Below, piece after piece: positions 8,930-24,917 of a stretch of 64,000 nt of DNA. The position numbers and the translations under genes are program-made. The stretch comes from Candidatus Krumholzibacteriota bacterium (GTDB lineage: Bacteria > Krumholzibacteriota > Krumholzibacteriia > Krumholzibacteriales > Krumholzibacteriaceae): NCBI GenBank assembly GCA_030609325.1, contig JAUWCL010000014.1, positions 1-64,000 of the forward strand, written 5' to 3'. The notes under the pieces are model-generated. The model ran no database searches and was not told the origin of the DNA. It saw only the letters and a program-made list of their open reading frames with translations. How positions within the stretch are numbered: the stretch's first letter is position 1; the number at the start of each line of letters is the position of its first letter.

Positions 8930-9006
<77 letters not shown>

Positions 9007-9012
9007 ACTTGA

Positions 9013-9059
9013 AAGACGATTTCCCGGTGTCCAGGCTGCATGGAGCCGGGAATCGTCTT
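9013..9059 (+). terminator. Hairpin terminator after tRNA-fMet
   Basis: Arms AAGACGATT..CCCGG (9013-9027) and CCGGGAATCGTCTT (9046-9059) pair over 14 bases with one bulged T, around an 18-base loop. The T tract after it is poor (TATATGG), but position and stem strength support termination of the tRNA transcript and perhaps of the convergent operon. Confidence 0.55.
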
Positions 9060-9101
9060 ATATGGATTGACATTGGGGTTCCTTCTCATGGGAGAGACAG
9101 G

Positions 9102-10199
9102 TCAGCGTCTCTTTATCCTGTCGAACAGATTCTCGGGCATCTTATCAAGCTTCCTGACACCTCGCCATGCATGTTGAATCTGCCTTCGCAGTTTTCCGGT
9201 TACACCGCTCGGATCATAAGCCTTCAATATAGAGTACAGTATTATGGGATTGAACCTTTGTGGCCAGTAGGCAAGATAGCGGCCTTCCCAGGAAGTGGGC
9301 CCGAATTGCTTCTTGAATTCGTAGATGGGCTTATACCGATGGAAATGTCCCAGACGGTCAAACGCAAGAGTTAATGCCAGCTCGATGATACGACTCTGTG
9401 TCGGGTCATCCACATGTTCGTTGGCGAGAGGGGCTGTACCGAGAGTAGCCATCGCATATCCCTGTTCCTTTAGAAGACGGAAAGATTCAGCGATCAACAA
9501 CTGGTTCGTGCCACGCAATGTCGTTTCCTTGCGGCGCATCAGATCGAAATAGATACCATTTCTTGCATAAATAGGGGCGCATACTACGAATGCTTCGACC
9601 CGGTTGTCTTTGAGCACCAGAAAGTACTTCCGTTCTCCAGGATCGGACAGCCCGGGGTCGCCTATCAGAAAAGCAAACTCACCCGAGCCCTTGAATTTCA
9701 TCCAGGCGGCGGAGAGCTCCTCCATATTTTTCTCCCAGTCCGGCCTTCGCCCTTCAAGCGGACGATATTCGACCAGTGTCAAGCCGTGCTTCTTTGCCCT
9801 TCTGGTGTCATTACGCAGATCCTTGAACTTGCCGCCCGTCCACGACAATTTTTCCAGCTCGAAGATCGGCTCCTCGCCGATCTTGATCATGCCGAAGCCC
9901 TGTTTTTCGAGGACTTTCTTGCAACGATCGGTGACGGCCTGGAAGCAGCAGCGCCGTTTATGCGCATTGCAAAAATGCCTGAATTCAGAAATAAACTCGC
10001 TGAGATCTGAAGGATCACATACAGGATCACCGGCGGCCAACGCAACGTTGGCATGGACCACATACGCGATCACGCCGTCTATCCCGGATGGTGAAAAGAA
10101 GTATGACTTGTCGCTACAAAGAATGCTGTACGACTGGGACTGATAGCCGTGGCGTTTAAGTGCTTCGAGTACGCGATCCGAATCGCCGTTTACCTGCAC
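9102..10199 (-). CDS. DUF2156 (phosphatidylglycerol lysyltransferase C-domain-like) protein
   Basis: About 365 residues from a GTG at 10199 preceded by GAGGGAG. A TTG at 10256 would overlap the upstream kinase gene and lacks a good ribosome site. The chain is a double GNAT-like fold of the MprF C-terminal type: YFFSPSGIDGVIAY, ALAAGDPVCDP, CCFQAVTDR and DLRNDTRRAKKHGL in the first half, and the MRRKETTLRGTNQLLIAE stretch near the end. MprF moves Lys or Ala from aminoacyl-tRNA to phosphatidylglycerol. Stand-alone soluble DUF2156 proteins lack the flippase part, and their acceptor is usually unknown. It is the last gene of the TetR-radical SAM-phasin-UbiB operon. Confidence 0.8.
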   Translation of the reverse strand: MQVNGDSDRVLEALKRHGYQSQSYSILCSDKSYFFSPSGIDGVIAYVVHANVALAAGDPVCDPSDLSEFISEFRHFCNAHKRRCCFQAVTDRCKKVLEKQGFGMIKIGEEPIFELEKLSWTGGKFKDLRNDTRRAKKHGLTLVEYRPLEGRRPDWEKNMEELSAAWMKFKGSGEFAFLIGDPGLSDPGERKYFLVLKDNRVEAFVVCAPIYARNGIYFDLMRRKETTLRGTNQLLIAESFRLLKEQGYAMATLGTAPLANEHVDDPTQSRIIELALTLAFDRLGHFHRYKPIYEFKKQFGPTSWEGRYLAYWPQRFNPIILYSILKAYDPSGVTGKLRRQIQHAWRGVRKLDKMPENLFDRIKRR

Positions 10200-10224
10200 A
10201 AAAGCTCCCTCACAAATATAGTGG

Positions 10225-11919
10225 TTACATTCTTCCACGTCGCACGATCGTAACAAGCAGCCAGAACCCCATCAATCCCGCAATCAGGAAACCGACCAGG
10301 CCGATGACGGGTATCTCCTGCCACTTGGGCGGTATACCGGACAGGACCATGAGCGCTGAACCGATGATGAGCGCAGCGAGGACGATGGCATAAGCGATCC
10401 GGTTGCTGATCCTTTCGTGGGTGGCAAACATCGGTTCGAGGCCGCGGTGCTCGAACTCGACCTTCAGCAAACCTTTCCTGGCAAGCTTGAGAATTTTTCT
10501 CATCTCATCGGGCACTGCCCTCATCAGGCGGAAAATATCCATTCCTGAATCAACCATGTCCCTTGTGAGCCGGTCGGGCTTGAAACGGCCCATGCGGATA
10601 CGCCTTATAAAGGGAGTGGCCCGCTCAACGGCGTCGAAGCCGGGATCGAGCTCGCGGCCAAGACCCTCCACCGAGGCCAGAGCCTTCACCATCAGGAAAA
10701 GATTGGGTGGAATGCTCAGGTGGTGCAGAGCCGCCGTCTTTAATAACCGGGGAATCAGCTTCCCCATTTCCAGTTCACCGAGGGGCATATAGCTGTACTG
10801 ATCGATGAACTCGGAGACATCTCTCTCAAGCACACGGCGGTCGGGCTCCTTCTCCGGACCGGTCAACTCTAGGAGGGCATCCGTCGCCTTCTTTTCATCG
10901 CACCGGACGATACTCAATACGAGATCGACGAAATCTTCGCGGCTTGCGATATCCACCCTTCCCATCATCCCAAAATCGAGATAACAGATCACATTATCCG
11001 GCAGGATGAAGATGTTTCCGGGATGAGGGTCGGCATGAAAGAAACCATATACAAAGACCTGTTTCATGATCAGGTCGAAACCACGCTCGGCGATTACCGC
11101 CGGATCGAGGCCTTTTTCTCTCAGCCTGCTGATGTCGGAAATCTTGACTCCGTCCATATATTCCATTGTCAGGACGCGGTTACTGGAAATCTCCCTGTGA
11201 ACCCGGGGGATATAAATATCCGGATCATCGTCGAACTGCCGGGCGAACCTCAACATGTTCGCCGATTCCATTGTATAGTCGAGTTCCTTTTCGATCGTGC
11301 GGGCGAATTCGGTCACCATCCTGGTGGGGCGCTGAACATCCCAGCCTTCGATGTGCTTTTCAGCCAGGCCGGCAAGGTGCATCATGATTTCAAGGTCGAT
11401 CTCGATGATCCGGCGGATATCCGGTCTCTGGACCTTTACAACCACTTCCTCCCCGTCAAGTGTCCGTGCCCGGTGAACCTGCCCGATCGATGCCGCCGCC
11501 AGGGGATGCTCCTCGAAATACGAAAAGATCTGATCGAGAGGCTTGCCAAACTCGTTCTCCAGGATATCCCGGACATCGGCGAACGGGAAAGGCGGTACGT
11601 CATCCTGCAGCTTGGGCAGTTCCTGTATGAGATCAACGCTGAGCAGATCGGGCCGGGTCGAAAGAATCTGGCCCAGCTTGATAAAGGCTGGGCCGAGTTC
11701 CTCCAGTACCATCCTGATACGAACGGCGTTTGACAATGTCTCGAGCCTTGCCCGGCGTTTACGGGAAACGAGATTCAACCCCACTTCCACGGACTTCTCG
11801 ATATTCATAACGTCCACCAGGTGCCCGAACCCGTACTTGAAAAGCACGGACAGGATCCGGCGATAGCGCTTCACGTGGTGAACTGTTTTCTGGATCCGGT
11901 TTATCCTGAAGGTGGCCAA
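10225..11919 (-). CDS. AarF/ABC1/UbiB-family atypical kinase
   Basis: 564 residues. Hallmarks in order: the KxGQ-type motif in GPAFIKLGQILSTRPDLL, the Ala-rich nucleotide loop AAASIGQVHRA, the lysine strand EVVVKVQRP, EYMDGVKI, and the catalytic/metal segment HADPHPGNIFIL...YLDFGMMGR. Two membrane helices end the chain (about 505-560). Family members (UbiB, yeast Coq8) are ATPases or kinases needed for ubiquinone synthesis or lipid homeostasis. No ubiquinone genes are near, so a membrane-lipid role is as likely. It lies two bases after the phasin-like gene, an association seen for UbiB homologues elsewhere. Confidence 0.93.
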   Translation of the reverse strand: MATFRINRIQKTVHHVKRYRRILSVLFKYGFGHLVDVMNIEKSVEVGLNLVSRKRRARLETLSNAVRIRMVLEELGPAFIKLGQILSTRPDLLSVDLIQELPKLQDDVPPFPFADVRDILENEFGKPLDQIFSYFEEHPLAAASIGQVHRARTLDGEEVVVKVQRPDIRRIIEIDLEIMMHLAGLAEKHIEGWDVQRPTRMVTEFARTIEKELDYTMESANMLRFARQFDDDPDIYIPRVHREISSNRVLTMEYMDGVKISDISRLREKGLDPAVIAERGFDLIMKQVFVYGFFHADPHPGNIFILPDNVICYLDFGMMGRVDIASREDFVDLVLSIVRCDEKKATDALLELTGPEKEPDRRVLERDVSEFIDQYSYMPLGELEMGKLIPRLLKTAALHHLSIPPNLFLMVKALASVEGLGRELDPGFDAVERATPFIRRIRMGRFKPDRLTRDMVDSGMDIFRLMRAVPDEMRKILKLARKGLLKVEFEHRGLEPMFATHERISNRIAYAIVLAALIIGSALMVLSGIPPKWQEIPVIGLVGFLIAGLMGFWLLVTIVRRGRM

Positions 11920-11921
11920 GG

Positions 11922-12236
11922 TTACTCCTGTTTTTCACCGCCCACCGCATTTCTCTTTTCGAGAGAGGCAACTCTTTCAACCAGTTTATCAATATCTTTC
12001 TTTGTTACAACATCCAGTCTGGCCAGCACTTTCTTTACGCTCTCTTCGACCTTCTTCTCGAAATCTTTACTCGCTTCCTCGGACTTTTTCAAGAGCTCTT
12101 CGACAAACTCTTTTCCTTCTTTCTCCGTAATCTCGCCTTTTTTCACCAGTTCCCTGCCCAGTTCTTCGGCCTTCTCCTTGGTCATGACGGCAAGGCCCAC
12201 GCCTGTCAGCATGACTTTCTTCACAAGGTTCAGCAT
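11922..12236 (-). CDS. Phasin-like small coiled-coil protein
   Basis: 104 residues from ATG 12236, which follows AAAGGAG by 7 bases; an upstream in-frame start at 12287 has no such site. The chain starts with a short hydrophobic segment (MLNLVKKVMLTGVGLAV) and continues as a highly charged amphipathic helix (TKEKAEELGRELVKKGEITE and onward) ending in a likely coiled coil. This matches the phasin/PhaF-like family of polyhydroxyalkanoate granule regulators, which also occurs beside ABC1/UbiB kinases. No PHA synthase is present here, so granule binding is not assumed; it may tether or regulate the kinase. Confidence 0.75.
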   Translation of the reverse strand: MLNLVKKVMLTGVGLAVMTKEKAEELGRELVKKGEITEKEGKEFVEELLKKSEEASKDFEKKVEESVKKVLARLDVVTKKDIDKLVERVASLEKRNAVGGEKQE

Positions 12237-12283
12237 GGCTGCACTCCTTTCCTGAAAGACCCGGCGTGCCGCAGTACGCTCAT

Positions 12284-13732
12284 TCAATCACCCTTCTTCA
12301 TTCTCTCGATGTATTCATTTCTCCAGATCGGTTCGGTCAATTTTTTTATATCCTTCCCGTACTGTACCATACCCTGGTGATAATTGCCATCTTGCATGGC
12401 GACAGTGGCTTCTTCGTTTAAAGGCCTCGAACCGCAGCGCGCAACCGCGCCCTTGAGGATCTCGAAATGATCCCTGATCACGCAGGGACAGAGCCAGTTA
12501 TCCGTTTCTTCGGAAATACGGTTATATCCATATTCATCCTGCCACTTTCGTATTTCACGGAAAAACGGCGATTCGAGCGCCGTATCGAGTGTTCCTCCTT
12601 TCGAATAGATGTCATAAATATTATCTGAGGCATAAGGCACAAACGCGCATGGTGAAATGTCACCGTTCCAGTCGATGTAAAGATATCCACCCGGCCGGCC
12701 GGCGCTGATGCACCCATTGGAAAGGACCCCGTTGTTCCAGAAGTCGGCCAGGAATATCTCTCGCTCACGAACGAGGCGCTGCACCCTGCGTAACATCTCT
12801 ACACGCTGCCGGGGCGGGACCACCAGATCGAGCGACTGGCCGCGCCCTATCGGCATGTACTGGAACAGCCAGCCGTAGGCCGATCCTTCCTGCTCGAAGT
12901 AGAAATCGATGAAACGGTCACTTGTAATCGTTTCCCAGTTGTTCCTTGTAGGTGTGGCCGAGATACCGAACGGCACTCCGTTGTTTCGCAGATTCTCGAA
13001 TGCCTTGAGGATCTTTGCATGTACGCCCTTTCCGCGCCTTTCATCGGTCTCCTCGGTAAAACCTTCCACGGAGATCGCCGGTGTGATATTCCCCATTCCA
13101 CCCATGCGCCTGGCGACCTCATCCGTTATCAGCGTAGCATTGGTATAGACCATGAACATGTCGGAAGGGTGTTTCTCGACGATGTCGAGCAGCCCCTTCG
13201 GGCCGTCCCTCCAGAGGAAAGGCTCTCCTCCTGAGATCACGGTGAAATGAGATCCCCAGAGTTCACGCTTTTCGGTAAGGATCCTGTCGAAGGTCTCAAA
13301 ATCGAGACTCGCGTGATTTCCCGGTTCGCTCTCCGCATAACATCCTTTGCAGCGCAGGTTGCATTTTCCAGTCGGACTGATTAAAGCGAAGAGTGGAACT
13401 TTGCCTCCATGACTCCCGTCGGATGATCCCGGTCTTTCCCTACTGGTCAGAATGACGTTGTTCAGGAATACTTCTATCAATCGATTGATTACCTGCCTGG
13501 AGATCAGTCCCCGGTCGATGGCGCGTTCTGCGCCGCGCAGCATCGCCACAATGTAAAGATACTTCTCTTCCTGCACACCGACGGGACGGTTGGCAGGATT
13601 CTCGACGACAATCGATTTATACGCCCTGGATTCGATTACCTTTCTGGCCCTGGGTCTTATATATTTACTGTTGATCATGAGCCTGATTAATTCCTGAAAC
13701 GATCCGTTTTTCAGAATAGCCTCGGCTTTCAT
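12284..13732 (-). CDS. Radical SAM protein with C-terminal SPASM-like cysteines
   Basis: 482 residues. The radical SAM cluster motif CNLRCKGC (CxxxCxxC) follows ALISPTGK near residue 120, and the SAM-binding TVISGGEPFLW lies about 40 residues later. Toward the C-terminus, cysteines in NGCISAG, DISPCAFVPY and NWLCPCVIRDH could hold auxiliary iron-sulphur clusters as in SPASM/Twitch enzymes. An N-terminal helical region of about 100 residues precedes the barrel. The substrate cannot be named from sequence. Clustering with TetR, a phasin-like protein and a UbiB kinase hints at lipid or quinone chemistry rather than peptide modification, since no precursor peptide gene is visible. Confidence 0.88.
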   Translation of the reverse strand: MKAEAILKNGSFQELIRLMINSKYIRPRARKVIESRAYKSIVVENPANRPVGVQEEKYLYIVAMLRGAERAIDRGLISRQVINRLIEVFLNNVILTSRERPGSSDGSHGGKVPLFALISPTGKCNLRCKGCYAESEPGNHASLDFETFDRILTEKRELWGSHFTVISGGEPFLWRDGPKGLLDIVEKHPSDMFMVYTNATLITDEVARRMGGMGNITPAISVEGFTEETDERRGKGVHAKILKAFENLRNNGVPFGISATPTRNNWETITSDRFIDFYFEQEGSAYGWLFQYMPIGRGQSLDLVVPPRQRVEMLRRVQRLVREREIFLADFWNNGVLSNGCISAGRPGGYLYIDWNGDISPCAFVPYASDNIYDIYSKGGTLDTALESPFFREIRKWQDEYGYNRISEETDNWLCPCVIRDHFEILKGAVARCGSRPLNEEATVAMQDGNYHQGMVQYGKDIKKLTEPIWRNEYIERMKKGD

Positions 13733-13745
13733 TATTCTCCTCCAA

Positions 13746-14366
13746 TCATTCGGCCAGGCTCCCCTTGAGAAACAACTCCGTGATCATGGGAATATTTTTC
13801 TCGTAGGCATGACGCTCCGGGTTCTCCATCCAGCAGAAGAGAAAGGCGTTGGTGAGCCCCTCCAAGGAGATGGCCATGTAGTAGGGATCCACCCTGCGAA
13901 ACACGTTTCTCTTGATTCCGACCTCCAGCACCGCCGCGAGACGTTCCACCAGTTCGTTGTAAAGCTTGAGCATGTCCCTGTCCAGTCCGGCCGCAATATT
14001 GAAGCTGGCACCTCGTGTTTCGGCGAAATAGATCCTGAGCGAGCTGATACGAGTGGTGAAGAAACCCGATTTGGCCGAGATATACGACCTGATAACGGTC
14101 AGGGTATCATCCTCGCCCGCAAGGACCTCCGTGAGGATCCGGTGGTAATCAGTCGCCATTTCGGTCACGAGCACCTTGTAGAGATCCTCCTTGTTCCTGA
14201 AAAACTTGTAGAGCGTGCCTATTGCGAACTCGGCTTTCTTTGCGATCTTGTGCATGGATATGTTGTGATACCCTTCCTCGGCGAACAGCCCAAGAGCGGA
14301 AGAAAGCATGTGCTGGCGGCGCCAGAGCCTCTCCTTCTCCTTTCGTGAAAGATCCTTTTCCTTCAT
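13746..14366 (-). CDS. TetR/AcrR-family transcriptional regulator
   Basis: 206 residues from ATG 14366 (GGGAGGAC just upstream); the frame is open to 14471 but that leader is unlike TetR proteins. The N-terminal helix-turn-helix is classic: MLSSALGLFAEEGYHNISMH, KIAKKAEFAIGTLYKFFRNK, EDLYKVL. The C-terminal ligand domain is typical in length. It is the first gene of the operon running to 9102 and should repress it, probably along with its own promoter. The inducing ligand is unknown. Confidence 0.92.
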   Translation of the reverse strand: MKEKDLSRKEKERLWRRQHMLSSALGLFAEEGYHNISMHKIAKKAEFAIGTLYKFFRNKEDLYKVLVTEMATDYHRILTEVLAGEDDTLTVIRSYISAKSGFFTTRISSLRIYFAETRGASFNIAAGLDRDMLKLYNELVERLAAVLEVGIKRNVFRRVDPYYMAISLEGLTNAFLFCWMENPERHAYEKNIPMITELFLKGSLAE

Positions 14367-14423
14367 TACGTCCTCCCGTCCAAGCCCATTACAGCCCACA
14401 TGCAAGCAAGAACATAACGTCAT

Positions 14424-14450
14424 ATAATAGAATGATGCGTCACATGTCAA
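14424..14450 (-). promoter_or_regulatory. Candidate promoter of the TetR-radical SAM operon
   Basis: Minus-strand TTGACA (14445-14450) and TATTAT (14424-14429) are 15 bases apart, shorter than ideal. The region is AT-rich and lies about 60 bases before the TetR start. A self-repressor should bind here, but I could not define a clean palindrome. Confidence 0.4.
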
Positions 14451-14483
14451 GAAAAAAAATTTCCTTTTCATGAATAATCCGGG

Positions 14484-16511
14484 TTAATGGTGTTTGCTTG
14501 TGCCGGTATCGCCGTAGAAGCGATTGATTTCCCCCATGATTATTTTCAAGATATCCGGGCGCGGACGGGACGCCTTCAGCGTGATGTCGTTCAACTTGTA
14601 CTTCTTTGTGTACATCGGGTAGATCTCATAGACGCTGTTTTCGACGATGAATGCATGATTGAAATAGCTGCCGATTACAAAGGGACGCATCTCTGTTTGC
14701 TTGTCGAACAAACTTCTCCCGTTGCTGTAATCCAGGATGTCGCTTGTACAGCCAAAGAAGTCCTGAAGAAGAGTCGGCGCGATGTCGATATGGGAGGTCG
14801 CATGTGTAATGCGCTGCGGCTCCTTATCGGGGAAATAGACGATCAGCGGCACACGGGTCTGATACTGCGTGAAGTTACTGCCGTGCCCCCAATAATTAGC
14901 CTTGTTATCATTGAACTCCTCGCCATGGTCGGTGGTGATGATGATGATCGTATTCGCCAGAGCCCTGAGTGATTCCAGTTCTTGAATGATTTCGCCAACG
15001 AGTGCGTCGACATAGTGGATCGAGTTTCGATAATCATTCAGGTAATATTCGGGGGCTGTGCCGTCGCTAGTGAACGCCAGGTTTATCTCCTTGGCGGGGC
15101 GAAACAGCGCATGGGCTTCGGGATAACAGTAGGGGCAGTGGGACGACTTGAAAAAGGCAAGAGCCATGAACGGCCGCTGACTGCCTGTTTGCTCATGTAA
15201 GAATGAGATCAATTGCCTGGTAAGGTCTTTATCCTGATCGGGGATGGATTTCCCCGAGAAGGATTCGTGAACCTCGATGCCGCGAAAGATGGTGTCCTTG
15301 ATCTTATGACGCTCGAATTTCGATTTGGCATAAATGCCAAAAGAATATTTGTTTTTTTTAAGGACATCGATGAGGACAGGATTGTCGATGAGGGTGCTGT
15401 TGGCCTTCACCGCCGTCCAGTAAGTCGGGTGAAGCCCATAGAACATGCCGAAAATGCCGCATGTTGTTTGATTGCCGGAGCTGAAATGCTTGAGAAACAT
15501 CGATGATTTCTGAGAGAGGGCAAAGATGTTCGGCGACACTGCATCGTTCATCATGTCGAAACGCCAGCTTTCCAGCAAGATAATAACGATGTTAGGAAGT
15601 TTCTTGCCGTACGGTGCACTGTACTTCATGTCGCTGAGCGGATAGTTCAGGGAGCTGTATTGGTACTCCTTCGATGTGACCCCGGATTCGGTCTCTCCAA
15701 TCGGGAGAAGTCCTCCGTATTTAACGGCATTCTTATGCGAGGTGAAAGGGATGTAGGCAGGGAGGTGCGGTGTAAGACTTGTGATCCGGTTATTGTTCCT
15801 CTGGTAGGCGACGATATGGATAACCTGGCTGACACCAAAGGCCAGGATCGTGAGCAGCGAAAAGGTCAGAATCAGACATTTGGGTTTCCTGACCATCCGC
15901 GCAACGGTGAAAATCCCGACCTCAACCGCGATGATTCCAAGCAGGGCCACCAGCAATGTGTGGCGTGTGGGAGTCGGCAAACCCAGACCGCTGAAATCGT
16001 TAAAAACATATCCTAGCCAAAAGAAATCGATGTGAATCTTAGTTATGTTATACATAAAGCTGTCCAGGAGGAGATAGTAGACGAAGATCGTAATGATTGC
16101 TCCGCTGCAGCAGATCGCCACCCTTCTGAGAGAAAAAAAGAATAGAGATATGAGTATGATGACGAACAGAAGAGGGAAAACGTAGTAGCCGATGAAGACA
16201 CAGGAGATGTAAACCCATGTCAGCCTGGTGAAATCGACGTGCCTAATGTTCAGCAGAAGAGTAGAGCAGATCAGCGGAACATTGAGCACCAGAGCCGTGA
16301 CCAGATATTGATACAGGTCGGTGTATTTCTTTAGAGAAGGGCAATGGAAGTTTGTGCGTCGGACCCTTTCAGTCGGATCTGCAGGGGAAAGAATTGCATC
16401 TTCGAGGTTCTGACAACGCGCGGGGTCTATTTCGCTCCCAGTTCGGAAGCTTCCACGACCCGGCAAATCCGCTTCGAGTTCACGTTGCCGGATGAAACCG
16501 TGTTTCTCCAT
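14484..16511 (-). CDS. YejM/PbgA-like membrane sulfatase-fold protein
   Basis: 675 residues. About five membrane helices (residues 70-270) precede a periplasmic alkaline-phosphatase/sulfatase-fold domain. Similarity to E. coli YejM is visible in NYPLSDMKYS, SSGNQTTCGIFGMFYGLHP and ATSHIDIAPTLLQDFFG. YejM senses lipopolysaccharide and lacks a working metal site. Here the site looks intact: E314 in LLESWR, T349/T350 in NQTTCG and D528-H529 in TTDHGEEF, with spacing close to lipoteichoic-acid synthase. It could therefore be an active phosphotransferase or sulfatase as well as a lipid sensor. It ends the RND/DUF1302 operon (12 bases after the barrel gene). Confidence 0.85.
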   Translation of the reverse strand: MEKHGFIRQRELEADLPGRGSFRTGSEIDPARCQNLEDAILSPADPTERVRRTNFHCPSLKKYTDLYQYLVTALVLNVPLICSTLLLNIRHVDFTRLTWVYISCVFIGYYVFPLLFVIILISLFFFSLRRVAICCSGAIITIFVYYLLLDSFMYNITKIHIDFFWLGYVFNDFSGLGLPTPTRHTLLVALLGIIAVEVGIFTVARMVRKPKCLILTFSLLTILAFGVSQVIHIVAYQRNNNRITSLTPHLPAYIPFTSHKNAVKYGGLLPIGETESGVTSKEYQYSSLNYPLSDMKYSAPYGKKLPNIVIILLESWRFDMMNDAVSPNIFALSQKSSMFLKHFSSGNQTTCGIFGMFYGLHPTYWTAVKANSTLIDNPVLIDVLKKNKYSFGIYAKSKFERHKIKDTIFRGIEVHESFSGKSIPDQDKDLTRQLISFLHEQTGSQRPFMALAFFKSSHCPYCYPEAHALFRPAKEINLAFTSDGTAPEYYLNDYRNSIHYVDALVGEIIQELESLRALANTIIIITTDHGEEFNDNKANYWGHGSNFTQYQTRVPLIVYFPDKEPQRITHATSHIDIAPTLLQDFFGCTSDILDYSNGRSLFDKQTEMRPFVIGSYFNHAFIVENSVYEIYPMYTKKYKLNDITLKASRPRPDILKIIMGEINRFYGDTGTSKHH

Positions 16512-16523
16512 GATATGCCTTTA

Positions 16524-17867
16524 TTAGAACGCGTACTTGAAAGCCAAGTAGATTTCGTCCATCCCTGTCAATTGCCCGAAGTTTGAGTGACCACTTCCTT
16601 CGATGAGATGAGCCCCAATCTTTACCTCGCTACCATCCCATGGGTAATAGGCGATCTCCGGCATGCCTACGATTGCGTAGTCATCTCCCGGATCTGTTAT
16701 GTCCGGGACTTCCACCGCCGCTGCCATAGTCAGTTTTATTGTTTCATTGCGGAACTTCTTCTCCACACCCCCGACGAGATAATCGTGGAGTGCATCTTGC
16801 CCCAACTCATGTACGAATCCGTGAATGAATTGACCGTTTAAATAAATTCCATTGTGGAACGTATAGTCTCCCCCGATGGCAAAGCGCGCGAACGGATCAT
16901 CAGAAAGAGCTACAAACTCGCTAATGCCCAATTCCAACGCAGACGCATCCAGCATGGCCTGGACTTCTTCGGGGAAAAACACTCCTATTTCCGCCCATAC
17001 GCCAACATCCCAGATCGCCCCACTCATATCCACCCCCAGGACATCCATGCGAGGAAACACAAGAGTGTTGTGAGCCTCCACACCGCCACTTTCATCAGGC
17101 GTCAGAATCACCTTCTTTATAACCGGAAAATCACTTCGCCCCTTGTAATAGCTCACCGAAAGGTCGTAGTTGAGTACCGCCCGGCTCACCTTGATCGCAG
17201 CCGATGCCTGTTCCTTGAGGGATCTCCCCGGCAAATCCAACTCGTCTGAGACCACACTCGGCTTTATGTCGCCGCCGAGTGCAGGCAGGGAACCGGCGAG
17301 CGCCGCTGCCCAATCCGGGGGTGGAAGTGCCGCAGGCGTGAAACTCGGAACAAAAACACCATAGATTGTGACCTCGTCCCAGTAGTACGTAGCCAGCATG
17401 CTGGTTGTCGGAACGTGACGCCCGAAGTCCCAGATATCCTCCAGGTCGTCCGGATTGATATTGTCCGTGGGGTTGATCTTATCTGCGGTTCCCCATGCGA
17501 TACGTTGCCTGCCTATCCGGAAATCGAGATTGGGCGAGAGAAACTCGTACAGATCCACATACGCTTCCCGGAGAATCAAGTCCCAGGGGTTCAACTTCCT
17601 CTTGTCATGCCCCATGAGATCCGCGGTAGACTTTGCCACCGTGCCCCCGAACCCGCGGACCCAGACCTGGGCAAATACATGTGCATTGTCGACGGGACTT
17701 GCGTCAATCTCCAGGTTGAGCCGGTTTTCATTCCAGAGCAATTGTCCGTCACTCGTTCGCACACGCCAGTCGGTCAGGACATAGCCGCCGATGTCCACGT
17801 CTTCGGCCCTGGCCGAGCTTAAAAGACTGCCCCAGAAAAACATGATAATTATGAGTTTTATCCTCAT
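16524..17867 (-). CDS. DUF1302-like outer-membrane beta-barrel protein
   Basis: 447 residues with a signal peptide (MRIKLIIIMFFWGSLLSSARA). Alternating amphipathic strands follow: DIGGYVLTDWRVR, ENRLNLEIDASPVDN, LREAYVDLYEFLSPNLDFRI, GRQRIAWGTADKINPTDNIN. The last strand ends KYAF. The GRQ.IAWG..D.INP segment is the mark of DUF1302 proteins, usually encoded with an MMPL/RND transporter and a LolA-like lipoprotein carrier, exactly as here. It probably acts as an outer-membrane channel or acceptor for the cargo moved by those partners. Its ribosome site GGAGG lies inside the last codons of the native LolA-like remnant (17868-18035), showing the two were originally one operon. Confidence 0.85.
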   Translation of the reverse strand: MRIKLIIIMFFWGSLLSSARAEDVDIGGYVLTDWRVRTSDGQLLWNENRLNLEIDASPVDNAHVFAQVWVRGFGGTVAKSTADLMGHDKRKLNPWDLILREAYVDLYEFLSPNLDFRIGRQRIAWGTADKINPTDNINPDDLEDIWDFGRHVPTTSMLATYYWDEVTIYGVFVPSFTPAALPPPDWAAALAGSLPALGGDIKPSVVSDELDLPGRSLKEQASAAIKVSRAVLNYDLSVSYYKGRSDFPVIKKVILTPDESGGVEAHNTLVFPRMDVLGVDMSGAIWDVGVWAEIGVFFPEEVQAMLDASALELGISEFVALSDDPFARFAIGGDYTFHNGIYLNGQFIHGFVHELGQDALHDYLVGGVEKKFRNETIKLTMAAAVEVPDITDPGDDYAIVGMPEIAYYPWDGSEVKIGAHLIEGSGHSNFGQLTGMDEIYLAFKYAF

Positions 17868-18035
17868 CTACGGCCTCCGCTGCAAAAAACGCCCGATAAA
17901 GATGGCATCTGAGAGCCCGGCATCGAGGATGATTGTAGAAAAACCCACAATTGTACGATGTTCGATCTTGAGATCCTGCATATCGATCTCCAAAGCCATC
18001 CAGTAGCCCTCGATCTTGCTCACCTCGCTATCATC
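17868..18035 (-). pseudogene. 3' remnant of the native LolA-like gene
   Basis: Read on the minus strand from 18035 to the TAG at 17868-17870, this gives 55 residues containing SKIEGYWMALEIDMQDLKIE. They align without a gap to the last 53 residues of the intact neighbour (VKIDGYWISKVSEMQDLKAE). The remnant has the GC-rich codon use of the surrounding genome, whereas the intact copy is AT-rich. It has no start and no 5' part: the AT-rich copy ends exactly where it begins (stop 18031-18033). It is the surviving 3' end of the gene that once preceded the DUF1302 gene. Confidence 0.85.
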
Positions 18036-18783
18036 TTTTTAAATTCCTCTTTGAGAATTTGCTATCAGGAATTCCAGAATCAAATTTGACTTCCTCAATT
18101 ATCATTTTTGTTTTATGTTCTGCCTTCAAGTCCTGCATCTCACTTACTTTTGATATCCAATAACCATCAATTTTCACTATTTCATCTCTTATCATGATTT
18201 TAAAAAGCTTACTTCCTTTATCGCAATGCTCTATTTTGGTAGGATAGAAATTGTCATCTCTAATCCACATGAGCAGTTTCGAATAGTCCGTTTTCACACA
18301 TTCTTTTGGTATAAGCTCAAGGACATAATGATTGTCTTCTTTCCTCAATAATTCAGAACTGTACTTATCAGAATACCTTATTGCTTCCATATCCTCATAA
18401 CTAAAGTCGGTGCCGGCAAATTTTGTGTTCTTTACGTGAGAGGCGATCCTTCTTATCTTCTTAAAGGCAGGCAGATAAACGTACATGACATCGTCAGGAA
18501 GAGAAAGAAATGAGATTCCTTTTTGATCGGCCGGAGAGAGAAATTTTACCATCCGTTTGTCGCTGTCTTTCTGCATCATACTCATCTCACGAGACTTTTC
18601 TTTTCCCTTATTATCAATCAGGATCATTTTTATTCTTAAATCCTGATCTTTAGGCGCATTAATTACATCGTCAACCTTCATGAGAATTTGGGAAGCCGTA
18701 AGTTGTTTTTCAACTGCCCAGCCTTGAGAAAAAAAGGCCATTACACCCAACACGATAATAATGAATGAAATTGACCGTTTCAT
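18031..18783 (-). CDS. LolA-like outer-membrane lipoprotein-sorting protein (AT-rich, acquired)
   Basis: 250 residues with a signal peptide (MKRSISFIIIVLGVMAFFSQGWA). The body matches the LolA-like family found with MMPL exporters: SREMSMMQKDSDKRMVKFLS, GISFLSLPDDVMYVYLPAFK, FAGTDFSYEDMEAI and VLELIPKE. These periplasmic proteins are thought to carry hydrophobic cargo from the RND pump to the outer membrane. Codon use is strongly AT-biased (many AAA, ATT, TTT), unlike the DUF1302 gene beside it but like the RND gene upstream. It is complete and appears functional, replacing the native gene whose tail remains at 17868-18035. Confidence 0.85.
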   Translation of the reverse strand: MKRSISFIIIVLGVMAFFSQGWAVEKQLTASQILMKVDDVINAPKDQDLRIKMILIDNKGKEKSREMSMMQKDSDKRMVKFLSPADQKGISFLSLPDDVMYVYLPAFKKIRRIASHVKNTKFAGTDFSYEDMEAIRYSDKYSSELLRKEDNHYVLELIPKECVKTDYSKLLMWIRDDNFYPTKIEHCDKGSKLFKIMIRDEIVKIDGYWISKVSEMQDLKAEHKTKMIIEEVKFDSGIPDSKFSKRNLKR

Positions 18784-18918
18784 TTTAGCTTTCTCCTTTT
18801 TTCGTTTATGTTAAAAACGTTCATTTCTCTTCATACTATTTTTCATTTCATAAGCGATTCTTTTCTGTTTAAAAGTCATTTGCAGCCTTGTATCAAGCCC
18901 ATTCTTTCCCCCTTTCTT

Positions 18919-21870
18919 TCATCTTTGAATCATTCTTTTAATTATTTCGCTTACCCTAGCTCCCATATCATTGGTAAAGCGGTCATGATTTCCTACGAGC
19001 CCTGAACGGGATACCAAAATCAAAGCCGGTAAAACAGTAATCGAACTCAGGGCAGCAGTTATCATTGTTATAGCCAGTACGTAGCCAAACCATCTCATCG
19101 GAACTATATCACCAAATATCAACACTAAAAACCCCATCCCTACAGTCATAGCATTGATGATTATAGCCTTTCCCGCAGTTTCCAGTGTTTTATCCAGCGC
19201 TTCCAGTTCAGTTTTACCCTTGGCAAACTCAACCCTAAACCGGGAGATGAAATGTATAGAATAGTCTATTCCTACACCCATTGATATATTACCAATTAAA
19301 ATTGTGAGTTCATCTAAGGGTATGTTAAATATTGCCATGAGAATAAAATTTACTAAAATACAGAGGATAATCGGAACGATTGATATTAATCCACCAATAG
19401 GTGATTTAAACTGTAAAGTAAGAAGAAGAAATACCAGAACGATAGCAATGCCGAGACCCAAACCCTGACTTCTCATAATTTTTCGGTCAAGTTCTTTATA
19501 GATTAGCGGTATTCCTGTATGTTCAGCAGTCAATTTGACTTTAGCCTCATTCTCAGTTTCTGTTATTTTTGAGAATATAATATATTTTGAACTATCAATT
19601 GCTATCCAGTCTTCGTTTATCTCCCAGAGATCATCCTGTAAATCCTTCAAGAATCCTGTATCCTCAATTAGATTTTGAGGAAGGAGAGGTTTTAATTCTT
19701 GAACAAGTTGATTTACTCTTGCCCATCTTTCTTCATCAGCTATAATTGCCCAAATCGACTCAGCGGCATACTCCAGGATTTCTGTCTCTTCAGCGTCGAG
19801 CTCTTTTGGAATATTCCGTTTTAAGATAGCGACAACCTCATTTTCACGGGAATTATTCTCTTTTAACATTTTGCTGATGTCATGAACGACGCTGGCAATA
19901 ACTCTTTCTGATTCTATTTGAACATCTGCTTCATCACTGTCCAAATAATCACCAATTTTTATTCCTATATCTTCTATAGAAGCATTATCGAATCCATCCC
20001 AATCGTCCGAGACTCTCGACACAATTGCATTCCTTAACACATTGTCAAGATTAATACTTTCAACCTTTCTCTTTTTAATATCCCACTTTATTTTAGACAA
20101 TATTCTTTCTACACGTTCCTTTTTCAGCTCTTCAGCCAGTTCGCGGGAAGCAAGAGATATTTTAACTTTAACCAAATCTGTTTTGAGTTCCTTGTTAAGA
20201 TAATTGTCAACTGCATTTACAATCCTGTTAATAACTTTTGTATTTACTGAACCCAATTTCGCCTGAATTACACCTTCTGTTGCATCGCTGTTTATTAACT
20301 GGTCTAATATTTCCTGACCCTCGATAAAGAACCAGAGATTTGCTACTCCCTCTTTTGTCTCGGGAATGGTATAATGTCCATTCATCACCCAGTTCATTTC
20401 ACAAATTAAATCGGCAATAGACTGGGTGTCATTTATATCTAGCTGAGCTTCCAGATACTTTTCCAGTTTCACCATCTCTTTTAAAACAAAGGGTTCTTTC
20501 ATATTTCCTCTAACAAATATCTGAACCGGTATAGCACCACCAAGTTTTTCTTCCATCATTTCTTCAGCAATTCTTATTTCGCTATCTTTTTCAAAGTAGG
20601 AAGCATAATTCACTTCTCTTTTTAATTTTGGAATAGCAATCAGGGAAACTATAACGATAAGAGCACCTATAATAAGGATAAGTTTTTCGTTCTTGAGGAC
20701 ATAATATCCCAGTTTATCCATCAGTCTTGTTGTCCAGTTGTCTTCTATCCCGCGGTGATTTAACCTTACTTTTTTAATCTTTAACATCGAAAGAACTGCC
20801 GGAACAAAAGTAGCAGAGATTAACATGGCAAAAAAGACACCTAGAGCCGTTGCAGCTCCAAACTCCCTAATTATACCCAAATCCGAAGACATAAAGGACA
20901 AAAAACCGATCAAGGTTGTAGCACCCGCCAGAATAATTGGTTTTCCTACTTCGCTTAAGGCATGCTTTATTCCCTCAAGTTTGCTATCTCCTCTTAAAAT
21001 ATCTTCGTTATATTTGGCAAGCATGTGGATTGTATAAGCAGTTCCAATGGCTATAAGTAAAACAGGTAAGATCTCTGATGCCATAGTAAGTTGAATATTC
21101 AACAAACCCATTATTCCTAAGGTCCAGACAGTGCTAATTAGTACTGTAGCCAAAGGTAGAAAAACCCCGCGGAAACTCCTAAAACTGAAATAAAGAGTAG
21201 CTATCACTAAAAGCGTAACTAGAGGGAGAAACATTTTTATGTTTGCTTTGATAAGATCGCCAAGAAATGCTATCTGAAAGGGCATTCCTGCATAATAGAT
21301 TTTTTCATTACCTTCTATTTCCTGGACAATCTTTTTCATCCGGCGAGAAACATTTATTTTATCATCACCCTCTTTCAATCGGGCAATGATTACCGTAACC
21401 TTACCGTCGCTGGAAACCAAGCTCCCTCTATACATCTTCTTGGAAAGAATATATTCCTTCATTCTCTTGAGTTCTTCAGGGTCTTGAGAAATATCATCCT
21501 TATCAATAAGTTTTCCGACTTCTAAGCCCCATTCCGTTTTCTTAATGTCCAGAATATCGGTCAAACTCATCACGTGGGAGATCTCATCCATCTCCTTGAA
21601 TTTCCCAGTAATCTCATTCACTCTTGTCAGGGTTTCATAGTTGAAAATGTCATCGGTTTCCAGACCAACCATAGCCAGATAATTGCCTCCGAATTTATCG
21701 CCCACTTCATTAAATAATATCACGATAGGATCATCCTGAGGCATATAACTGAGAAGATCGCTGTTTATTTTAATCTCTTTTAGATGATAGCCTAAGAATG
21801 CGGTAACACCGATAGTGACTAGAATAATCACTAAGCGAAACTTGAGAATTAATTCAGCAAATTTTTTCAT
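18919..21870 (-). CDS. MMPL/RND-family exporter (AT-rich, acquired)
   Basis: 983 residues. The topology is that of RND proteins of the MMPL/HpnN type: helix 1 at 12-30, a large periplasmic domain to about 210, a bundle of five helices (about 212-370), a second helix and very large loop (about 395-770), and a last bundle (about 775-975) with GVGIDYSIHFISRFR. Such pumps move hydrophobic molecules such as hopanoids, lipids or pigments to the outer membrane with LolA-like and DUF1302 partners, both encoded next. The gene is conspicuously AT-rich against GC-rich flanks. The N-terminal 110 residues are clearly homologous to the truncated native copy at 23535-23846. AGGAG precedes the ATG. Confidence 0.9.
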   Translation of the reverse strand: MKKFAELILKFRLVIILVTIGVTAFLGYHLKEIKINSDLLSYMPQDDPIVILFNEVGDKFGGNYLAMVGLETDDIFNYETLTRVNEITGKFKEMDEISHVMSLTDILDIKKTEWGLEVGKLIDKDDISQDPEELKRMKEYILSKKMYRGSLVSSDGKVTVIIARLKEGDDKINVSRRMKKIVQEIEGNEKIYYAGMPFQIAFLGDLIKANIKMFLPLVTLLVIATLYFSFRSFRGVFLPLATVLISTVWTLGIMGLLNIQLTMASEILPVLLIAIGTAYTIHMLAKYNEDILRGDSKLEGIKHALSEVGKPIILAGATTLIGFLSFMSSDLGIIREFGAATALGVFFAMLISATFVPAVLSMLKIKKVRLNHRGIEDNWTTRLMDKLGYYVLKNEKLILIIGALIVIVSLIAIPKLKREVNYASYFEKDSEIRIAEEMMEEKLGGAIPVQIFVRGNMKEPFVLKEMVKLEKYLEAQLDINDTQSIADLICEMNWVMNGHYTIPETKEGVANLWFFIEGQEILDQLINSDATEGVIQAKLGSVNTKVINRIVNAVDNYLNKELKTDLVKVKISLASRELAEELKKERVERILSKIKWDIKKRKVESINLDNVLRNAIVSRVSDDWDGFDNASIEDIGIKIGDYLDSDEADVQIESERVIASVVHDISKMLKENNSRENEVVAILKRNIPKELDAEETEILEYAAESIWAIIADEERWARVNQLVQELKPLLPQNLIEDTGFLKDLQDDLWEINEDWIAIDSSKYIIFSKITETENEAKVKLTAEHTGIPLIYKELDRKIMRSQGLGLGIAIVLVFLLLTLQFKSPIGGLISIVPIILCILVNFILMAIFNIPLDELTILIGNISMGVGIDYSIHFISRFRVEFAKGKTELEALDKTLETAGKAIIINAMTVGMGFLVLIFGDIVPMRWFGYVLAITMITAALSSITVLPALILVSRSGLVGNHDRFTNDMGARVSEIIKRMIQR

Positions 21871-21981
21871 GCTTTACTCCTAGAAATTTTTATAAAAACA
21901 ACCAGACCAAATAATTCAGCAATTACTGAGCCTTTTGCATAAATAATTTTCAAATCCGACCGTTGGACTCGATAGCTACAT

Positions 21982-23534
21982 GAGTGAGACAGGGCATTCA
22001 CTCGTTTTCATGTAACGTCTTTCAAGTTTCGTTTTTGCAAGTCACATTTTTATCGACTGTACGGCCAAAATCTCAGGCCGATCCGCTGCGAAACAGTTTA
22101 TTCATCGATTCCAGCACGCTTTTCCGCTTCGCCACAGCTTCAGCAGGTTGTGCGTGCAGCAGATCAGCGACCACTCGCAGCGGCAGGCGTCAAATCCCCG
22201 CCGCATAAAGCTATCGAAGCCTCGAACACCCTTGATCTGCCCGAACACCGGCTCGACCGTTTGGCTTCGCAATTTGTACAACTCCCGACCTCTCCTGGTC
22301 CGAAGTTTTCGTTCCATCAACTCAGTCACCGATAGACCCGACGGTATTCGACCTCGCGGCGGGGGTTGATCACGCATCGCCTTTCGCTGTTTCCAATCTT
22401 TCTGCGTCGCTATCAATAACTCCGCTTCACCGGCGGGGACTTTCGTAAAATTATCGTCGCTGCAATAGCCGGCGTCAGCCAAGGCCACGCCGATGCTCCC
22501 CTTCACACTGACGGCTTGCCGGTTCACTTCAACCTGCTGAAGCATCGGGTGCAACTGCTGCTTATCGTTGGCCTGCCGCGTAACGTCCTCGGCTACGATT
22601 ATCTGCTCCCGCGTTACCGCCGCCTGGGCATTGAGGCCCTGAACATAGCCTTTTCGCGTCTTCATGATCCGACTGTCCGGGTCGGTTGCGTTCGCCTTGG
22701 CTTCGATGTTCTCCCCTTCTTCGGGCGACTTCGGCTTGCGGCCGCGAGTCTTTTTGCCGGTCGCCCCTTCCTTCGCCTGACGCCGATCGATCTTTTCCTG
22801 CTGAACCCGACGGGCCTCAGCCTTTTCCCGCTCCAGCCGCTCCTTGCAGGCCTTAAGACGGATCAGACGGCCCCTACGATCCCGCAAGCCTTCCGGCAGT
22901 TCGTCACCGCGCTTGCCGGGGCCAAAAGCCTCGTCCTCCTCGGCATCCCTCGCCGCCGCCTCGGCCAGCATCTTCTCGACTTCCCGCTCAAGATGCTTCA
23001 GCGTGCGATTCGCCGCCAGCGATGCGTTGGCCTTGATCTTCGTGCCGTCCAGCGAAACATTGCCAAGCTTCACTAACCCCGCTTCCGCACACAGCCGAAG
23101 CACCTCAAGAAACAAACCTTTAAGATCCTGATCGTTGTCCTTGCGGAAGCGCGCGAGCGTAGTGTGGTCGGGAGCTCGGTTCGCAGTGATGACCTTGTAG
23201 GCCACATCAGTCTGACAGAACTTCTCGATCCGCCGACTGGACCGCTCGCCGGTGCAGTAGGCGTAAAACAGCAGGCTGACCATCATTGACGGATTGAAGG
23301 CCGAATTGCCTACCCCGTCTGTGCGGTACTTCTGGTAAAACGACTCCAGGTCTATTTGCTCAACGGCGTCGATGATAAACCACGCCAGATGACCTTCCGG
23401 CAACCAATCCGCCAGAGACGGCGGCAGAAGATACGCCTGTTTCCGATCGCAGGGCAGAAAATTGTAAGCCATGAAAAAAACCTTTCTTAACGCTCTATCA
23501 TCCCATTAGCCGCATTATACCCGCCCGAACACTC
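21982..23534 (-). mobile_element. IS1182-type insertion sequence (ends approximate)
   Basis: The element is defined by its single transposase gene (22102-23472). Possible ends share GAGTG...GGGC read inward from both sides (left 21982, right 23534), a weak terminal repeat; the length of about 1.55 kb suits the family. No matching target duplication is visible at these ends. The left flank is AT-rich foreign DNA and the right flank is GC-rich native RND sequence, so the element sits at a rearrangement junction. Exact boundaries need comparison with other copies. Confidence 0.65.
22102..23472 (-). CDS. IS1182-family DDE transposase
   Basis: 456 residues. The N-terminal DUF772 domain (LPEGHLAWFIIDAVEQIDLE, GNSAFNPSMMVSLLFYAYCT, APDHTTLARFR) is followed by a DDE domain. 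The first acidic residue is in NVSLDGTKIKANAS, the second in ALADAGYCSDDN and the glutamate in TVEPVFGQIKG. A charged Lys/Arg/Glu insertion separates the first two. The ATG follows a run of As after the RND remnant. The gene appears intact, so the element may still be mobile. Confidence 0.95.
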   Translation of the reverse strand: MAYNFLPCDRKQAYLLPPSLADWLPEGHLAWFIIDAVEQIDLESFYQKYRTDGVGNSAFNPSMMVSLLFYAYCTGERSSRRIEKFCQTDVAYKVITANRAPDHTTLARFRKDNDQDLKGLFLEVLRLCAEAGLVKLGNVSLDGTKIKANASLAANRTLKHLEREVEKMLAEAAARDAEEDEAFGPGKRGDELPEGLRDRRGRLIRLKACKERLEREKAEARRVQQEKIDRRQAKEGATGKKTRGRKPKSPEEGENIEAKANATDPDSRIMKTRKGYVQGLNAQAAVTREQIIVAEDVTRQANDKQQLHPMLQQVEVNRQAVSVKGSIGVALADAGYCSDDNFTKVPAGEAELLIATQKDWKQRKAMRDQPPPRGRIPSGLSVTELMERKLRTRRGRELYKLRSQTVEPVFGQIKGVRGFDSFMRRGFDACRCEWSLICCTHNLLKLWRSGKACWNR

Positions 23535-23846
23535 GGTGAGGCTCGTCATGTGGGTGATCTCGGGGAGCGCCTTGGCCTTCTCCGTGATCTGGTGGATTGT
23601 CCGGAGTGTGGCCGCAGTGAACACGCCGTCCGATTCCACGGCGATTATCGCCAGTGAATTCCCCGCGAACTGTGCACCCACCGCATTGAAGAGCTGAACT
23701 GCCTCGTCGCTGTCCGGGAAGTAGTTCAGGATGTCGCTATCGACCTCGAGACGCGGCAGCAGTGAGACGAACCAGAAACTGAGTATGAGCGTGACCAGAA
23801 TCACGAGAACCCGGAACCGAACCACGAGGTCTGAGAATCGCTTCAT
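23535..23846 (-). pseudogene. 5' remnant of the native MMPL/RND exporter gene
   Basis: The first 104 codons of an RND gene start at ATG 23846 with VRFRVLVILVTLILSFWFVS, then LEVDSDILNYFPDSDEAVQL and AGNSLAIIAVESDG. They align throughout to the start of the intact AT-rich exporter (KINSDLLSYMPQDDPIVILF; GGNYLAMVGLETDD). Homology stops at SLTE, where the insertion sequence begins; the frame then runs 15 codons into the element to a stop at 23487. GC-rich codon use matches the genome. The rest of the native gene is missing. The peptide could still be made but could not transport. Confidence 0.88.
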
Positions 23847-23949
23847 AATACCCCACCAGACAGATTGGACTAAATTCGTTTACTAGTACGATTGCGACAC
23901 AAAAAAAACGGCTCTCCGCCAAATATCAGCATCATAGGGGCGGATCCTA

Positions 23950-24531
23950 TCAGATATCCGGCGCAAGAATCCCGCGGAAGAGCATACGTAACAGAACCTC
24001 GGCATGTTCGTTGATGTCTGCTATTCCTGTCTTCGCAGTCCATGGGTACTCCAGCCCCTTCAGGGCTGTGATCACTGCCAGGGCCGTCACCTCAACGTCT
24101 CCATCCTTCAGATTGAGTGCTTTCTTCCTTAACCCCTCGGAAAGGATCTCCCGAAACATCGCCATCTCATCTTCGAAATCCTTTTGCCTCACATTTTCGA
24201 TAAACGGATAGTGTTCCAGATACTCATCCCTCAGCGCGCTATAGAAGTTTGCCAGTTCCCGGAGGTGACTCATCCGGGTAATCACATAAGCCCGCAGCTT
24301 TTCCTGTGGTGTGCCGGCCTCCTCGACCGCGTCCCTGATGCGTTTTGCCAAAGTTTGTCCTTCCCGCTCAATCACCGCACGGAAGATGTCTTCCTTGCTT
24401 GCGAAGTGATGATAGAGCGTGCTCTTGGCAATATGTGCAGCGGAGGCAATCTCATCGACGGTAGTCTTGTTGAACCCGAAGCGCGCGAAGAGCTTCTGGG
24501 CCGTTTTTAATAGTGTCTCCCGTGTGTCCAT
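23950..24531 (-). CDS. TetR/AcrR-family regulator of the RND locus
   Basis: 193 residues from ATG 24531 (GAGGG upstream); the GTG at 24558 would add nine residues and has no ribosome site. The DNA-binding domain is canonical: LLKTAQKLFARFGFNKTTVD, EIASAAHIAKSTLYHHFASK, EDIFRAVIEREG. The C-terminal domain has the usual length. It was the first gene of the native operon TetR-RND-LolA-like-DUF1302-YejM-like. A perfect 23-base palindrome lies 62 bases upstream of its start and is the likely operator. Confidence 0.92.
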   Translation of the reverse strand: MDTRETLLKTAQKLFARFGFNKTTVDEIASAAHIAKSTLYHHFASKEDIFRAVIEREGQTLAKRIRDAVEEAGTPQEKLRAYVITRMSHLRELANFYSALRDEYLEHYPFIENVRQKDFEDEMAMFREILSEGLRKKALNLKDGDVEVTALAVITALKGLEYPWTAKTGIADINEHAEVLLRMLFRGILAPDI

Positions 24532-24593
24532 ACGAAAACCCTCATTCTGCCTTGACACATTTGCTTGTCAATTGATGGTGGACAAATTCACCT

Positions 24594-24616
24594 GATTAGT
24601 AGTAATACTACTAATC
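24594..24616. promoter_or_regulatory. Perfect 23-base palindrome, probable TetR operator
   Basis: Arms GATTAGTAGTA and TACTACTAATC (11 bases each) flank a single central A. It lies upstream of the TetR gene in an AT-rich intergenic stretch. A second, looser inverted repeat TTGACA/TGTCAA lies at 24552-24571 and could hold the -35 box. Size and symmetry suit a TetR-family dimer or pair of dimers. Confidence 0.65.
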
Positions 24617-24716
24617 GACCAATTTGGTTTCAATGGTTTTTTAGTAGTGGCGTTAATTTCCTCTTAGCCCATGGTGTCCTTGGTATGGTTGAAGACTGGC
24701 ATAGTCATTCCATAAG

Positions 24717-24917
24717 CTAGTTGCCAGCCCCCAACTTTATATGGTAGAGCGACGTATATATGTAGGGGAACCTGCTCTGGCCGAGGCAATCGATGACACT
24801 GCATCTGGCGGGAGTCTGCTCTCCACTCTCCGCGTCGATGACCACGACCGTCAGAAGCACATTTCCGGCTGGCGGTCCCGCGGCCGCCAGCAGACAGAGT
24901 GCCAGCGCCGCAGATAA
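24717..24917 (-). pseudogene. Short truncated secreted-protein remnant
   Basis: Read on the minus strand this gives a hydrophobic signal-like stretch (LLSAALALCLLAAAGPPAGN) and then VVIDAESGEQTPARCSVIDC before a stop at 24717. The DAESGEQTPARC pattern resembles the start of secreted proteins with a carboxypeptidase-regulatory-like module (for example ahead of CehA-type phosphoesterases). No good start codon exists because the frame begins in the terminator at 24914-24941. It looks like the 5' remnant of a decayed gene. Low certainty. Confidence 0.35.

Follow-up and report, generated by a model that had tools for sequence, protein, structure and literature searches.

A probable in-place displacement of an RND pump and its LolA-like carrier within an apparently foreign envelope island of Candidatus Krumholzibacteriota

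Xenologous gene displacement and mosaic operons are reportedly treated by Omelchenko et al. in a study from 2003. The displacement of genes in situ within an operon is discussed as a concept in PMC9425974 and PMC1274311. Among the routes by which foreign DNA can be joined to a genome, homology-facilitated illegitimate recombination requires one homologous end (PMC3240628). For the type of operon concerned here, our literature search found only one characterised analogue, AmeABCD of Castellaniella defragrans, in which an HAE3 pump works with LolA-superfamily and DUF1302 proteins and whose deletion raises the net influx of Nile Red (PMC6394551). Here we describe a related locus in a draft genome of a Candidatus Krumholzibacteriota bacterium (2.63 Mb in 56 contigs, 95% complete, 0.01% contamination), using bases 1-64000 of the 71.6-kb contig JAUWCL010000014.1, which we call the window; other genomes are given G numbers and their loci L numbers. 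Our reading, to which we assign a probability of roughly 0.77, is a layered horizontal transfer that ended in the in-place xenologous displacement, by non-homologous steps, of two operon genes encoding a pump of the resistance-nodulation-division (RND) type and a LolA-like periplasmic carrier. Such replacement within operons is normally inferred from conflicting trees alone, whereas in this locus the steps can be read from both broken ends.

Remnants of two displaced genes around an AT-rich pair

The argument rests on the following features:

23532..23846, minus strand: 5' remnant of the displaced RND gene, 105 codons, 41% identical to the AT-rich copy
21928..23532, minus strand: IS1182-family insertion sequence (IS) with an intact right terminal repeat (at 21928) and without its left ~40 bp (at 23532)
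22102..23472, minus strand: intact IS1182 transposase open reading frame (ORF), sole copy in the genome (NF033551)
18919..21870, minus strand: intact AT-rich gene of an RND/MMPL (HAE3-like) inner-membrane pump (PF03176)
18031..18783, minus strand: intact AT-rich gene of a LolA-like periplasmic carrier (PF17131)
17868..18035, minus strand: 3' remnant of the displaced LolA-like gene, 55 codons, matching the end of the AT-rich copy without gaps
16524..17867, minus strand: resident gene of a DUF1302 outer-membrane protein (20.8 bits, Pfam cut-off 23.2)

Along the minus strand, a TetR-type regulator gene (TetR1) is followed by the RND 5' remnant, the IS1182 element, the intact RND and LolA-like genes and the LolA 3' remnant; behind the latter come the genes for DUF1302, a YejM-like protein, a second TetR regulator (TetR2), a radical SAM protein, a phasin, a UbiB-like and an MprF-like protein. 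There are no Ns over either join. GC content is 36-38% in all 500-bp windows from 18001 to 22000; the surrounding island described below has 47-57%, and for the host flanks most values fall at 55-65%. The AT-rich pair itself has a GC fraction of 0.36-0.37 and third-codon-position values (GC3) of 0.35 (RND) and 0.38 (LolA). Most neighbouring island genes have a GC3 of 0.58-0.70, and the host genes beyond 24999, like the 105-codon RND remnant, of 0.79-0.82.

Both AT-rich genes are full length. The pump (983 aa, Pfam MMPL with E 1e-59) has its best NCBIfam match in the HAE3 profile TIGR00921, at 272 bits with a cut-off of 352, and the carrier (250 aa, LolA_like with E 4e-54) matches its profile through the final position. 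At the protein level, the RND remnant and the first part of the AT-rich RND are 41% identical (E 3e-27), and the LolA remnant aligns without gaps to the final 50 residues of the AT-rich LolA at 42% identity (E 6e-11), E-values by which the homology between remnants and copies is not due to chance. The stop codon of the AT-rich LolA (18031-18033) falls exactly at its junction with the old LolA remnant. An earlier note on this DNA, made from the letters alone, had claimed that GC-rich fragments of an RND and a LolA-like gene flank intact AT-rich versions of the same genes, and coordinates, composition and the 41-42% matches agree on this; the gap-free alignment and the position of the acquired stop codon, which it had also pointed out, were found as described. 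Its wider claim holds up as well, as the TetR, DUF1302 and YejM-like members were kept, pump and carrier were replaced in place by distant homologues, and both scars are visible.

With respect to relatives, the RND remnant reaches at most 46% identity to any homologue found (over the first 105 residues), and the first 105 residues of the AT-rich RND are 58-75% identical to the RND proteins of operons from KSB1, Zixibacteria, WOR-3 and G194. The closest kin of the AT-rich RND come from these same four sources at 55-65% identity, led by a metagenome-assembled genome (MAG) of KSB1 (65%), G194 (63%) and a Zixibacteria MAG (61%). No close relative of this pump was present in plasmid and viral collections, nor one of the IS transposase in the viral collection. 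The trees conflict within the operon: the AT-rich LolA groups as sister of G184 (support 99/99), and the resident DUF1302 is the sister of G085 (100/100), the genome that also holds the nearest relative of the LolA remnant. An identity of 40-42% between remnants and copies rules out a recent duplication of pump and carrier, and the two would belong to separate lineages.

The element between the RND remnant and the intact pump gene belongs to the IS1182 family, its transposase scoring 307.1 bits against NF033551 (cut-off 270). A 96%-identical copy in G006, a genome of the same family, has 40 extra upstream bases starting with GAGCCTGTTGCATAAA, and the mirror image of this end, GAGCCTTTTGCATAAA, is found in the window at 21928, where it abuts the AT-rich DNA. 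At 23532 the element lacks its first ~40 bases and with them the left terminal inverted repeat, and codon 105 of the old RND adjoins directly; it is a truncated IS1182 member. Judged from these ends, the boundary with the AT-rich DNA reads as a true transposition edge, and the boundary with the old RND as a later deletion or illegitimate join. Since the end on the native side is cut internally, the transposase did not make the 23532 join, and since the left ~40 bp with the terminal repeat are gone, this copy is probably immobile. The earlier note was therefore right about the family of the element but not about its simply occupying the other junction, as the native-side end is truncated.

Each old gene retains a piece that is also contained in the complete new gene, which places both outer joins out of homologous register. 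Because the old genes are partly duplicated and not exchanged at homologous points, homologous recombination did not set the breakpoints. No exact match shared by the AT-rich segment and the old remnants is longer than 9-12 bp, so an assembler had no shared k-mer by which to join at the breakpoints. The old ends that were retained include both the leader under TetR1 control and the DUF1302 ribosome site, and for this reason selection probably kept exactly those parts needed to express the new pair together with the resident outer-membrane partner. The ribosome site, GCGGAGGCCGTAGATG, lies in the old LolA remnant, within its final codons, which may explain why this tail was retained. The locus makes non-homologous breakpoints readable, together with the facts that the pump moved with its carrier and that the outer-membrane partner stayed.

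The tRNA-linked island and its counterparts in related genomes

The displaced genes lie within a larger block, whose remaining features are:

9007..24641, no strand: island of ~15.6 kb read as horizontally acquired, with identity to G024 and G023 above that of the flanks; missing in the congener G001
8930..9006, plus strand: tRNA-Met (CAT), found by ARAGORN, island border, bordering the same genes in G001, G023 and G024
9102..10256, minus strand: MprF-C-terminal-like (DUF2156-type) protein, partial match to NF033480, 85% identical in G024 and 79-80% in G227
10225..11919, minus strand: UbiB/ABC1-type kinase-like protein (TIGR01982 at 455.9 bits, slightly below cut-off), 86% identical in G024
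11922..12287, minus strand: phasin-like protein (Pfam PF05597)
12284..13732, minus strand: radical SAM/SPASM protein (Pfam PF04055), missing in the G024 island and found in G023
13746..14471, minus strand: TetR2, second TetR regulator (Pfam PF00440), 80% identical in G024
14484..16511, minus strand: YejM-like sulfatase/DUF3413 membrane protein (PF00884 and PF11893; NF038282 below cut-off), 77% identical in G024
23950..24558, minus strand: TetR1, operon regulator (PF00440), same-locus identity 88% in G010 and 87% in G024
24605..24633, minus strand: promoter-like site of TetR1, overlapping a 23-bp palindrome, GATTAGTAGTATTACTACTAATC, a likely operator (consensus match)
24742..24860, minus strand: head of a host PHP/CehA-type gene, broken off at the island edge (72-74% identity over 38-39 residues, then the match ends)

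In the congener G001, the locus consists of orf742, a PHP/CehA-type gene, tRNA-Met, ftsB and enolase, the operon is entirely absent, and the gene that is severed in the window is whole (650 aa). In G024, which belongs to the same order but another family, the island sits at the same tRNA, and protein identity to the window amounts to 87% for TetR1, 77% for the YejM-like, 86% for the UbiB-like and 85% for the MprF-like protein. At the DNA level, identity to G024 is 81-85% in the island and 65-70% in the flanking genes; for G023, in the tRNA-side half, the values are 84-85% in the island and 67-72% in the flanks. Homologous DNA common to G000, G010 and G024 begins sharply at the TetR1 promoter (24641), and the other end of the island is the tRNA. 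The island ORFs include no integrase. As a possible attachment (att) repeat we considered a 9-nt copy of the tRNA end near 24724, and rejected it, being matched in 6 of 318 windows and missing in relatives.

In the distant genome G227 (L102, 1-1143 and 10593-11705), two MprF-like genes, 79-80% identical to that of the window, flank a TetR-RND-LolA-DUF1302 operon, an arrangement which suggests that the whole module was transferred. We infer that the block moved between lineages from three observations, namely that the island is more alike than its flanks, that its presence is patchy and that G227 carries this MprF-like pair. The block from tRNA-Met to the truncated host gene, with the displaced genes included, is accordingly a horizontally acquired island. 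On this point the earlier note went too far, since it had called the displaced operon native, in the sense of long resident; the island is missing in G001, and its identity to the counterpart in another family exceeds that of its flanks. In other words, the "native" flanks of a transfer can be recent arrivals too.

TetR-RND-(radical SAM)-LolA-DUF1302 is a widespread, barely described operon in KSB1, Zixibacteria and WOR-3 MAGs (L036-L039, L093-L095), and in KSB1 and G194 it is followed by phasin and UbiB-like genes. Because complete operons in other phyla keep to the order TetR-RND-LolA-DUF1302, the AT-rich pair can be said to have landed in the orthologous slot. This slot is unstable. In G024 it has been emptied (L145, 11465-11596), the TetR1 leader being fused to the final 20 codons of DUF1302, and RND, LolA and the remainder of DUF1302 are gone; G024 was considered as a holder of the intact operon, with TetR1 and the MprF-like gene 5.1 kb apart, and was dismissed when the segment was read and found to lack the pump. 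In G005, of another genus in the same family, what is left of a DUF1302 gene follows an hsdR-like type I restriction gene (L092, 4160-4655); this relic looked chimeric, but decay of a copy from another lineage is the simpler explanation. G010 has its TetR1 at the corresponding position, and the G010 contig ends (L091, 11487) one base before the RND start codon, possibly due to strain variation at the slot; the contig of G023 ends inside the YejM-like gene. In G023 the MprF-like gene of the island was moreover cut down to both of its ends by an internal deletion (L174, 7437-7670). The slot is thus swapped in the genome studied here, deleted in G024 and met by a contig end in G010, or next to it in G023. 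That the RND-LolA(-DUF1302) segment forms a dedicated and repeatedly exchanged slot of the tRNA-linked island is nevertheless doubtful; if it were true, selection on the surface exporter (by phage, antimicrobials or substrate) would mix pump-carrier pairs across phyla and leave the regulatory and envelope core in place.

Regarding the regulation of the leader, the TetR1 palindrome is partly conserved in G010 and G024, and a terminator-like stem was found 3' of TetR1 (23920-23907, consensus match). Together with the promoter-like site and palindrome this is consistent with an autoregulated leader, as far as consensus matches alone can tell.

Course of the displacement and rival explanations

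In the sequence of events that we propose, the envelope island from TetR1 to the MprF-like gene first entered beside tRNA-Met and truncated the host gene, as the comparison with relatives shows. AT-rich DNA from a distant lineage, with a complete RND-LolA pair in the same order and orientation as the old genes, was then joined between the old RND and the old LolA, the out-of-register breakpoints pointing to non-homologous joining. An IS1182 element circulating in the host family may have inserted just upstream of the AT-rich RND afterwards, or may have come with it. A deletion would finally have linked the old RND, at its codon 105, with base ~41 of the IS, and brought the AT-rich pair close behind the TetR1-controlled leader.

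The order of the last steps is where an alternative has most room. A 5.5-kb linear fragment that already carried the truncated IS could have been captured in one step by double illegitimate recombination, since 18031-23532 is contiguous and both of its outer ends are illegitimate breakpoints; we consider this the strongest competitor, though well short of an even chance, as the GC fraction of the IS (0.59) and its 96% relative within the host family fit an insertion after arrival better. The IS might also have carried the pair in itself, as a composite-transposon-like unit or by one-ended transposition, given that it abuts the foreign pair with its terminal repeat intact on that side. A composite transposon proper, which needs two flanking IS, was rejected, and the whole idea is the least probable of those considered: the element is single copy in the genome, its outer end is lost, and the 18031 end shows neither IS nor terminal repeat. 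Hardly more credible is a chimera of assembly or binning, in which the IS and the LolA junction mark the misjoins of an AT-rich contig from another organism. For this speak the draft state of the MAG (56 contigs), the position of one junction at an IS, a usual site of misjoins, and the contigs of two related MAGs (G010 and G023), which end at or beside the slot. Yet this genome has just one copy of the IS, 4% different from the one in G006, the 18031 join has no repeat (longest exact match 12 bp), Ns are absent across the joins, a random misjoin would not be expected to put a foreign pair into the orthologous slot in the right orientation, and where the AT-rich DNA meets the IS there is an exact terminal repeat, such as a real transposition leaves.

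Leaving origin aside, the operon could be unused and the locus a decaying junkyard, in which the AT-rich pair is intact merely because it is recent. The loss of pump, carrier and nearly all of DUF1302 in G024, the broken DUF1302 fragment that is all that G005 keeps and the gutted MprF-like gene in G023 speak for this. We regard it as unlikely, less so than a chimera but more so than one-step capture, because neither AT-rich ORF lacks a single codon, the breakpoints leave the leader and the DUF1302 ribosome site untouched, and TetR1 and the YejM-like, TetR2 and UbiB-like genes are intact at 77-87% identity across families.

Several observations weigh against an in-place displacement from a distant lineage as we describe it, beginning with the fragmented state of the draft assembly. 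The search yielded no donor genome closer than 65%. The pump and the carrier have partly different relatives (G080/G194 against G184), and the AT-rich pair may itself be a mosaic. Phylogeny, by which the earlier note had hoped to separate the two versions of each gene, gave a divided result: a foreign origin is supported by the 40-42% identity and by the positions of the AT-rich pair and DUF1302 in their trees, but because the remnants are short, approximately unbiased (AU) tests did not formally reject a single clade of remnant and AT-rich copy (p values of 0.23 and 0.07). In addition, distances in 12 operons correlate most strongly between LolA and DUF1302 (r 0.89), followed by RND-LolA (0.81) and RND-DUF1302 (0.77), with TetR looser, and such a co-inheritance of LolA and DUF1302 may mean that the hybrid works poorly. 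Here LolA and DUF1302 come from different lineages, contrary to the usual pattern, and the locus lends itself to testing if an outer-membrane protein already in place can cooperate with a pump and a carrier that originate in another phylum.

Predicted function and comparison with known systems

The AT-rich RND resembles HAE3/MMPL exporters of lipids and hydrophobic compounds (HpnN, MmpL), and relatives of the LolA-like protein have solved structures (9tp6, 3bk5). By analogy with AmeABCD, we predict that a foreign pump and carrier form a hybrid exporter with the resident DUF1302 outer-membrane protein, and that its substrates are hydrophobic or lipid-like molecules. Both systems combine an RND pump (of HAE3 type in AmeABCD, HAE3-like here) with a periplasmic protein of the LolA superfamily and an outer-membrane protein of the DUF1302 kind, and both lie on a genomic island (PMC6394551). 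They differ in the carrier, AmeB being a DUF1329 protein and the carrier here a LolA_like protein (PF17131). AmeABCD also has AmeC, whereas no AmeC-like second periplasmic protein was found between TetR1 and the YejM-like gene, and the present locus adds TetR, YejM-like, UbiB-like, phasin and radical SAM genes.

The IS fits the IS1182 family by a transposase above the family cut-off and by its matching terminal repeat, GAGCCTNTTGCATAAA, but departs from it in having lost the left ~40 bp including the terminal repeat. Like tRNA-adjacent genomic islands, the block starts at tRNA-Met in several relatives and has a patchy distribution, and unlike these it has no integrase and no convincing att repeat. 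With homology-facilitated illegitimate recombination the locus shares the joining of foreign linear DNA without homology at the junction, but neither visible junction is in homologous register (PMC3240628). The closest agreement is with xenologous displacement in situ, in which members are replaced in place by distant homologues, with order and other members retained. The process is a known evolutionary one, and the locus is a very clear and well-preserved case of it, inside an island that is itself foreign: where displacement is usually deduced afterwards from trees, here pieces of both old genes, out-of-register breakpoints and a truncated IS are still visible.

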